Source: an uncultured Bacteroidota bacterium (GTDB taxonomy: Bacteria > Bacteroidota > Bacteroidia > Chitinophagales > Chitinophagaceae). Taken from it: a DNA stretch of 37,578 bases. Below are positions 4,858 to 7,187 of this stretch, piece after piece (position 1 is the stretch's first letter; the number at the start of each line of letters is the position of its first letter). The DNA lies in the NCBI GenBank assembly GCA_903871575.1, contig CAIQHJ010000010.1, positions 1 to 37,578 of the forward strand, written 5' to 3'. The position numbers and the translations under genes are program-made. The notes beneath the pieces were generated by a model. That model saw only the letters and a program-made list of their open reading frames with translations, searched no databases and was not told the DNA's origin.

Positions 4858-4891
4858 ATCAGCAATAAAATTATTAGTGAAAAGGAATGGT

Positions 4892-4899
4892 TATTTTTG
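4892..4899 (+). promoter_or_regulatory. Candidate -7 element of the mutL promoter
   Basis: TATTTTTG matches the Bacteroidota -7 consensus TAnnTTTG. It lies inside the first codons of the track ORF (ATG at 4887), which argues that translation starts further down. The distance to the TTG at 4920 is 20 bases, similar to the spacing seen before acpP and gldK. No convincing -33 TTG is visible. Confidence 0.45.
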
Positions 4900-4919
4900 T
4901 GCTACAAATTACATTGATT

Positions 4920-6740
4920 TTGACAGATATCATTCATTTATTACCAGATAACATTGCCAACCAAATCGCTGCAGGTGAAGTTATACAGCGGCCAGGAAGT
5001 GCGGTAAAGGAATTGCTCGAAAATGCAGTTGATGCCGGTGCGGATGAAATTAGGCTAATTATTAATGATGCGGGAAAGTCGTTGGTACAAGTTATTGATA
5101 ATGGCAAAGGAATGAGTGAAACCGATGCTAGAATGGCGTTTGAAAGACATGCCACTTCCAAGATCAAGCACATTGATGATTTATTTAGCATTAAAACCAT
5201 GGGATTTAGGGGAGAAGCACTGGCAAGTATTGCAGCGGTTGCACAGGTAGAACTTAAAACCAAACGGGCTGATGATGCTGCAGGTACATTTATTCAAATT
5301 GAAAATAGTAGAGTTGTTTTACAAGAGCCAGTGGCAGTAAATACAGGAACCAGCATTGCCATGAAGAATTTGTTTTTTAATGTACCAGCTCGTCGAAACT
5401 TTTTGAAAAGCAATACGGCCGAATTGCGCCATATTTTGGATGAGTTTATTCGGGTGGCGATGTCTTTTCCAGATATTTTATTTTCCTTGCAATCTAACGG
5501 ACAAGAAGTATTTCATTTAGAGAAAGGCAGTTTAAAACAAAGAGTGGTTCAAATTTTAGGCAATAGCTATAACGCGAAATTGGTAAGTGTTCAGGAAGAA
5601 ACAGACTATCTAAATATCATGGGTTTTGTGGGGAAACCCGAAACAGCCAAGAAAACAAGGGGGGATCAATATCTATTTGTGAACAATCGGTTTATCAAAA
5701 GTGCATATTTGAATCATGCCATCATGAATGCATATTCGGATTTAATTCCGAAAGATAGTTTTCCAATGTATGCTTTATTTATTGATTTGAATCCGGCTAA
5801 GTTGGATATCAATGTACATCCAACAAAGCAGGAAATAAAATTTGAAGATGATAAAATTGTATATGCATTTGTACAATCAGCGGTGAAGCATGCCTTGGCA
5901 CAATTTAGCATTACCCCTACATTGGACTTTGAGTTGGATGCAACAATTCAGCAGCTCGATGCGGTGAGTAAGCCAGTTTCTGATGCACAGCGCACTGCCA
6001 CAACATCATCACACTTATTCAAAACATTTACACAAAAAGGGCAAGCGCATTTTATTGAAAAGAGCAGTGATTTAAAACATTGGAAAGATTTTTACGAGCC
6101 ATCGGCTGAAAAAAATGAGGCATCATCAATAGATGTCAATGTATCCATACAAAGTATGCATCAAGGATATAAAGCAGAGCAAGTAATGTTACAACTGCAT
6201 CTATCCTATATCGTGATGCAAACAGAAGCAGGATATCTGCTCATACATCAACAAAATGCACACGAAAGAATTTTATATGAAAGATATACGGTGGCATTAA
6301 GTGGTAAACCCATTGCTACACAGCAGAGTTTGTTTCCAACAACCATTACACTATCACCTGCAGATGCCTTATTGTTGGATGAGTTGCTACCCGATATGCA
6401 AGCGCTTGGTTATCAAATTGAAATTTTTGGCAAACATACATATGTCATTCAGGGTACGCCTGCGGACGTACAAATAGGTAATGAGAAGGCGGCTATTGAA
6501 AAAATAATGGAACAGTATAAACATTTCAGTAGTGATTTGAAGTTTACGAAAAGGGAAAAATTGCTACGTTCTATGGCGATACAGAATGCTATTAAAGCTG
6601 GGACTGCACTTACACAGAAGGAAATGCAAGGGTTGGTGCAGGATTTATTTGCTTGTGAGGTTTCTAATGCTACTGCTACTGGCCGTCCAACCTACACACG
6701 TTTTGAGAAAGGAGAGATGGATAGGATGTTTGGGAGATAG
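4920..6740 (+). CDS. mutL: DNA mismatch repair protein MutL
   Basis: MutL dimerises and couples MutS mismatch recognition to strand removal. The GHKL ATPase is intact: QIAAGEVIQRP, ENAVDAGA (Mg/ATP-binding Glu/Asn), DNGKGM, FERHATSK and GFRGEAL. A variable linker (about residues 320-410) leads to the C-terminal dimerisation domain. I chose TTG 4920 (TDIIHLLPDNIANQ) over the track ATG 4887, because homologues begin at DIIHLLP and a -7 promoter element overlaps the extra 11 codons; TTG 4914 is the alternative. Oddly, the C-terminal endonuclease motif DQHA(X)2E(X)4E reads HQQNAHERILYE, and the usual CPHGRP zinc-site motif reads TATGRP, so nuclease metal ligands appear replaced. It is convergent with nrdJ across a repeat-bearing spacer. 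Confidence 0.96.
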   Translation: MTDIIHLLPDNIANQIAAGEVIQRPGSAVKELLENAVDAGADEIRLIINDAGKSLVQVIDNGKGMSETDARMAFERHATSKIKHIDDLFSIKTMGFRGEALASIAAVAQVELKTKRADDAAGTFIQIENSRVVLQEPVAVNTGTSIAMKNLFFNVPARRNFLKSNTAELRHILDEFIRVAMSFPDILFSLQSNGQEVFHLEKGSLKQRVVQILGNSYNAKLVSVQEETDYLNIMGFVGKPETAKKTRGDQYLFVNNRFIKSAYLNHAIMNAYSDLIPKDSFPMYALFIDLNPAKLDINVHPTKQEIKFEDDKIVYAFVQSAVKHALAQFSITPTLDFELDATIQQLDAVSKPVSDAQRTATTSSHLFKTFTQKGQAHFIEKSSDLKHWKDFYEPSAEKNEASSIDVNVSIQSMHQGYKAEQVMLQLHLSYIVMQTEAGYLLIHQQNAHERILYERYTVALSGKPIATQQSLFPTTITLSPADALLLDELLPDMQALGYQIEIFGKHTYVIQGTPADVQIGNEKAAIEKIMEQYKHFSSDLKFTKREKLLRSMAIQNAIKAGTALTQKEMQGLVQDLFACEVSNATATGRPTYTRFEKGEMDRMFGR

Positions 6741-6755
6741 GGGTCAGTTTTTATA

Positions 6756-7008
6756 GTCCACCATTTAAACGGTGGTTTGATGCATAGCTGAGAAAATCAC
6801 CATAAAAAATATTTGAAAAGACATCGCAAAGAAAGGGTTTTAAACCATCACCATGCAATCCACCATTTAAACGGTGGATTGATGCATAGCTGAGAAAATC
6901 ACCATAAAAAATATGTGAAAAGACATCGCAAAGAAAGGGTTTTTAACCATGATCATGCAAACCACCGTTTAAACGGTGGTTTGATACCCTCGCCGGAAAA
7001 TCACCATC
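6756..7008. repeat. 102-bp tandem direct repeat, about 2.4 copies, each led by a palindrome
   Basis: The 18-base cores start at 6758, 6860 and 6962, exactly 102 bases apart. Copies 1 and 2 are near-identical over the whole unit (for example GATGCATAGCTGAGAAAATC and GACATCGCAAAGAAAGGGTT); copy 3 decays after about 45 bases. Each begins with CCACC-n-TTTAAA-n-GGTGG. Copy 3 is a perfect 26-base palindrome centred on TTTAAA (6960-6985). In copy 2 the flanks are ATCCACC/GGTGGAT and in copy 3 AACCACC/GGTGGTT, a compensatory change that keeps pairing. Function is unknown; a folded RNA 3-prime end for mutL or a chromosomal repeat family are both possible. Confidence 0.9.
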
Positions 7009-7156: not shown

Positions 7157-7187
7157 AAAAAAAAACCACCGGCTTTCACCGGTGGTT
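7157..7187 (-). terminator. Intrinsic terminator of nrdJ
   Basis: On the minus strand a 9-bp stem AACCACCGG/CCGGTGGTT with a 6-base loop is followed by nine T residues (A-run 7157-7165 on the plus strand). It starts 32 bases after the nrdJ stop. The stem shares its AACCACCG core with the palindromes of the upstream tandem repeat. Confidence 0.85.

Follow-up and report, generated by a model that had tools for sequence, protein, structure and literature searches.

The closest described systems to the repeat analysed here are the REP/REPtron (RAYT, TnpA-REP) systems, which are best known in Proteobacteria (Nunvar 2010, PMC2817692; TnpAREP study, PMC8266576). In the survey of TnpA-Y1 transposases by Quentin et al. 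2018 (PMC6006769), subclass 1.2 was described as a low-copy, not IS-like group of Cyanobacteria and Bacteroidetes for which no REP is listed, and IS200 elements as multi-copy and nearly identical. For the automatic detection of REPs, GT[AG]G feet were used in that survey, and some classes were also inspected by hand (PMC6006769). Two further arrangements are related: IS200/IS605 elements with hairpin ends and small non-autonomous derivatives (PATEs), and BIME/REPIN compound repeats of at least two palindromes at fixed spacing. Relatives of the HUH transposase act on single-stranded DNA hairpins. E. coli REPs have, in addition, secondary roles as transcript-end structures.

The repeat lies in the window, i.e. 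the whole analysed stretch of 37,578 nucleotides, from an uncultured bacterium of a Ferruginibacter-like genus of Chitinophagaceae, placed near Ferruginibacter by its named relatives. The array is probably a cluster of REP-like elements, the non-autonomous partners of one resident TnpA-Y1 HUH tyrosine transposase.

The tandem array and its palindromic cores

The array is situated in a 478-bp gap with the convergent mutL on one side and a ribonucleotide-reductase-like gene on the other. The features of the region are:

4887–6740, plus strand: mutL (Pfam MutL_C, DNA_mis_repair), context outside the element
6757–7007, unstranded: 102-bp tandem array of 2.5 units (Tandem Repeats Finder)
6758–6775, unstranded: palindromic core 1, CCACCATTTAAACGGTGG, with an inner A/C mismatch
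6776–6859, plus strand: spacer 1
6860–6877, unstranded: palindromic core 2, with paired arms reaching 26 bases and one inner mismatch
6878–6961, plus strand: spacer 2, the repeat copy of the spacer
6958–6983, unstranded: palindromic core 3, a perfect 26-base palindrome
7164–7187, minus strand: intrinsic terminator of the ordinary type, serving the convergent ribonucleotide-reductase-like gene, context outside the element

A single tandem array was detected in the whole window by Tandem Repeats Finder, with a period of 102, 2.5 copies and 90% matches. Units 1 and 2 are distinguished by 5 of their 102 bases, and this 95% identity indicates that the last duplication was recent. The incomplete unit 3 differs at 13 of 48 bases, after which the similarity ends. 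The three TTTAAA-centred cores start at 6758, 6860 and 6962 and have the consensus CCACC(A/G)TTTAAACGGTGG. A tandem repeat with three cores exactly 102 apart, the third of them a perfect 26-base palindrome, had already been described in a reading made from the letters of the DNA (the sequence-only reading), and both statements agree with the Tandem Repeats Finder result and the determined core positions. No further core match within 3 mismatches was found elsewhere in the window (shuffle-based chance expectation 0.21).

The same reading had claimed that both arms were changed together in a compensatory manner, suggesting selection on pairing. In copy 1, 8 of the 9 core positions are paired and the positions immediately outside are unpaired. 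Just outside the core, copy 2 carries T...A and copy 3 A...T, so one pair was altered on both sides. The inner A/C mismatch of copies 1 and 2 was replaced by G/C in copy 3 through a one-sided change. The claim of compensation thus holds for the outer pair and not for the inner mismatch. As only one pair in the window is truly compensatory, the argument was thin but its direction was correct, and the wider family supplies the remainder of the evidence. Among 104 distinct copies of the genus, covariation was strong at core position 5 (C-G to G-C; z 9.7 against shuffles) and core position 6 (z 7.3, compared with shuffled partners). An excess was also seen for the TAGC/GCTA pairs on the flanks (z 2.7 to 4.3). 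None of these values takes account of the kinship among the copies. The pairing is conserved, in accordance with the proposed selection on it. For the hairpins of copies 2 and 3, folding as single-stranded DNA on either strand gave -8.6 to -12.4 kcal/mol, far better than shuffles.

Core 1 begins 18 bases past the stop codon of mutL. In the comparison of 30 mutL loci, palindromes directly 3' of the gene were detected in the window and two near relatives only, the three sequences being different, and none were found at the other mutL loci with enough sequence; the adjacency to mutL is therefore incidental. Due to the absence of the window's downstream neighbour gene from every other mutL locus fetched, a clean empty site at mutL could not be drawn. 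No T-tract terminator was called at the cores, and their interpretation as terminators was rejected on this ground. The nearest terminator, at 7164–7187, belongs to the convergent gene; it is strong, consisting of a AACCACCGG stem and a T tract, and is a separate feature with a superficially core-like stem. The Rfam search of the array region resulted in no family at, or near, the gathering score.

Dispersal of the cores and their association with tnpA

The genome containing the window (2.3 Mb in 279 contigs, 95% complete) carries 19 cores, spread over 10 contigs, when up to 2 mismatches are allowed, compared with 1 match of the reversed-pattern control. The sister type CCACG...CGTGG gave 1 match only. 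With one exception (18 of 19), the cores of this genome lie outside long ORFs, and several sit between convergent genes. At up to 1 mismatch, cores were detected in 28 of 93 congeneric genomes with a maximum of 32 in one genome, the fragmented MAGs under-counting palindrome copies. A search of the whole genome and of relatives had been proposed in the sequence-only reading, which listed an occurrence of the unit nowhere else among the findings against its interpretation; the recurrence on 10 contigs and in 28 of 93 congeners demonstrates that the unit does occur elsewhere. In the relative G095, several cores are located at or near contig starts (C68:6-23, C30:206-223, C86:377-394), which indicates that short-read assemblies may break there and that copies may be under-counted.

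The spacing of the cores is lineage-specific, being 102 in the window lineage and 114–115 and 60 in others. At a separate locus of the same genome (L028 4548-4769, G000:C138:18547-18768), three cores are exactly 102 apart although the spacers have no detectable similarity to those of the window. This points either to a constraint acting on the spacing or to an ancient shared origin.

Many cores are neighbours of genes for IS200-like Y1 transposases (family PF01797). The partner gene in the window's genome (G000:C205:8143-8541), tnpA, encodes an IS200-like HUH Y1 transposase of 133 aa with the motifs DHVH, WQ and YIKNQ. Directly upstream of it are two cores 101 bp apart, in a stretch 76% identical to the window unit over about 120 bases; the identity of the two full array units (6757-6858 and 6859-6960) to this 5' stretch was 74–76% over 118–126 bases. 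In the congeners G005 and G108, the cores are located at -227 and -125 from the tnpA start codon, 102 apart. No core of the window type was found beside the second Y1 transposase gene of the genome (C148).

The C205-type gene is present in one copy per genome and had glyS as its neighbour in 12 of 14 genomes, the copy of the window's genome being upstream of glyS. The gene thus looks stable, and the palindromes look mobile or variable. At least 4 cores were determined in 13 of the 14 genus genomes with C205-type TnpA versus 7 of the 79 without it (Fisher p 3.8e-10). Two of these seven, G095 and G112, were rated 100% complete, and the core-bearing genomes without the matching gene include the incomplete G113 and G114. 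In G095, G112, G017 and G030, 5–14 cores occur and the matching transposase type is absent; orphan palindromes, gene loss and mobilisation by another Y1 protein are candidate readings. In two relatives of TnpA, L115 (G111:C4:136463-136861) and L118 (G110:C8:24599-24997), Phe replaces the presumed catalytic Tyr (FIKKQ for YIKNQ). The genomes of these relatives contain 15 and 17 cores, respectively, and the proteins may have become relics without catalytic activity or have taken on a changed function.

The association extends beyond the genus. When GTDB genomes were scanned with the TnpA alignment, 57 loci were obtained, mostly of Bacteroidota, of which the 55 named loci were used for the density test. 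Up to 350 bp from tnpA, palindromes with an arm length of 10 or more reached a density of 3.05 per kb, compared with 0.25 per kb at distances above 1.5 kb, i.e. a 12-fold difference. Within the genus, the near and far densities were 3.39 and 0.19 for the near clade, and the contrast was weaker with other Y1 transposases (1.04 vs 0.34). The palindrome sequence differs among lineages, and the difference between arms rises with that between TnpA proteins (Mantel r 0.63, reached by 0 of 5000 permutations), a correlation which partly reflects the shared ancestry of the hosts. The mean arm distance was 0 at above 80% TnpA identity and about 5 of 11 at 30–40%.

The palindromes flanking tnpA recur away from the gene in several Flavobacterium genomes, a Pedobacter and a Flavobacteriales MAG, with up to 25 copies and 0 in the reversed control. 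In several other genomes, copies beyond those beside tnpA were few or absent. The palindromes CCAGCCATTTTAATGGCTGG of two Algoriphagus genomes (L230, L235) flank the transposase gene and occur almost nowhere else, so that the Algoriphagus locus is REPtron-like without dispersal. The strength of dispersal thus varies.

The transposase and the comparison with known systems

The C205-type protein was assigned by NCBIfam to IS200/IS605 transposases with 73 bits (cut-off 55), and remained below the cut-off of the REP-associated transposase model NF047646 with 35 bits (cut-off 80). The fold predicted for a relative 83% identical to it (pLDDT 88.7) was closest to the hairpin-bound TnpA of IS608 and ISDra2, and also matched the REP transposase 4er8. 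Both by sequence and by fold, the nearest solved structures are IS200/IS605 transposases.

Judged by its motifs, TnpA appears to fit TnpA-Y1 subclass 1.2 (PMC6006769), with which it shares DH[IV]H, WQ and YIKNQ, the short protein length, the low copy number, the distribution in Bacteroidetes and the not IS-like character. Two differences were observed. The HH of the subclass motif YIKNQ(KEHH) and the C-terminal tail have been lost in the window lineage, the HH being kept in 26 related proteins. Furthermore, unlike the subclass as listed without REP, nearly all proteins showing the canonical YxxxQxxHH motif (25 of 26) have a palindrome no more than 350 bp away. Only 2 of 118 palindromes carried a GT[AG]G foot, and the near absence of such feet may explain why the palindromes were missed by Quentin et al. 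2018. In the freely accessible literature searched, no prior report of REPs in Chitinophaga or of subclass 1.2 with REP was found.

With REP/REPtron systems, the window family shares small, intergenic, genome-dispersed and often clustered palindromes, which flank a single-copy gene of a HUH-Y1 transposase (TnpA-Y1, RAYT) that is not itself an IS, and both partners vary together. In contrast to REP/REPtron systems, the GT[AG]G foot is lacking, and the palindromes are often perfect with TTTAAA, TTGAAA or TTTCAA at the centre. The copy numbers of 5–32 are far below those of classical REPs, the copies in the window stand in direct tandem, and the protein is IS200-like (YxxxQ; YIKNQ here) and not of the class-2 TnpA-REP type (YxxNP; NF047646). 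Since the foot and the class-2 transposase are two classical features of REPtrons, the system was filed as a variant and not as a member.

The homologous transposase, the hairpin ends and the small non-autonomous derivatives are common with IS200/IS605 elements and PATEs. In contrast to these, one gene at a fixed site is surrounded by often several palindromes, and multiple near-identical mobile copies with a left and a right end were not seen. Like BIME/REPIN, the array is a compound repeat of at least two palindromes at fixed spacing; unlike them, the copies in the window and at C205 are direct repeats at 101–102 bp. In some Flavobacterium and other lineages, neighbouring palindromes have the opposite orientation and other spacings.

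Explanations for the array and their significance

The palindromes might form the ends of an IS200/IS605 insertion sequence of the ordinary kind, with the dispersed copies as its MITE-like remnants (PATEs). We consider this explanation unlikely, although worth keeping in mind. It agrees with the NCBIfam scores and the nearest solved structures, and is contradicted by the single gene per genome at the conserved glyS site and by the frequent clustering of palindromes around the gene, in place of one left and one right end. A transcript-end structure (terminator or mRNA stabiliser) selected for its RNA hairpin appears quite improbable. The intergenic position of 18 of 19 copies, several of them between convergent genes, the stable hairpins of copies 2 and 3 and the secondary roles of E. 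coli REPs are in line with it, but neither a T-tract terminator call at the cores nor an Rfam match at the gathering score was obtained, and the palindrome is missing after most mutL homologues. Moreover, clustering around tnpA and tracking of its sequence would not be expected of a general terminator. The RNA hairpin named as one option in the sequence-only reading is thus not supported as the primary cause, and an influence on mutL transcript ends, if any, would be secondary.

Local slippage duplication with coincidental palindromes is very improbable: the 95% identity of units 1 and 2 is compatible with it, but both the core and the 101–102 bp spacing are seen again at unrelated loci, and the genome-wide count of 19 cores against 1 in the control refutes slippage as the whole explanation. 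For the copy number inside the window array, slippage duplication is likely. The probability of a CRISPR or integron attC array is close to negligible, since the regularly spaced palindromic repeats are separated by spacers which are themselves 95% identical repeats, unlike CRISPR spacers or cassettes, and the palindromes go with a HUH transposase; CRISPR had rightly been dismissed from the letters of the DNA.

If the array consists of REP-like elements served by the resident TnpA, the palindrome would fold as a hairpin in single-stranded DNA, for instance on the lagging-strand template, and would be recognised there by TnpA, whose tyrosine would cut beside the hairpin. What is then pasted at new sites would be the palindrome alone or a unit of about 102 bp with two palindromes. 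All these steps, and transposition activity as such, are proposed on the basis of homology with IS608 and with the TnpA-REP of E. coli (PMC8266576). Due to the 76% identity with the doublet upstream of tnpA and the spacing of 102 in G005 and G108, the window array looks as if this two-palindrome stretch had been copied to a new place and extended there, one unit perhaps having been added by duplication or recombination.

An ordinary-looking repeat is, in our estimation with good probability, a REP-like element whose transposase partner could be identified and apparently comes from a subclass thought to be REP-less. With a chance only slightly better than even, subclass 1.2 TnpA serves as the transposase in an extensive REP-like system of Bacteroidota that had gone unrecognised, with perfect TT(N)AA-centred palindromes and no guide tetranucleotide, perhaps a separate domestication of an IS200-type TnpA parallel to RAYTs. 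The finding provides a candidate substrate and genomic partner for a HUH endonuclease subclass left without one by its defining survey (PMC6006769). It suggests that the domestication of an IS200-type transposase together with a population of small palindromes took place in a group other than the TnpA-REP class and with no GTAG guide. Two questions become testable: by what means such an enzyme selects its cut site when this guide is lacking, and whether palindrome populations persist via vertical inheritance of one resident gene.
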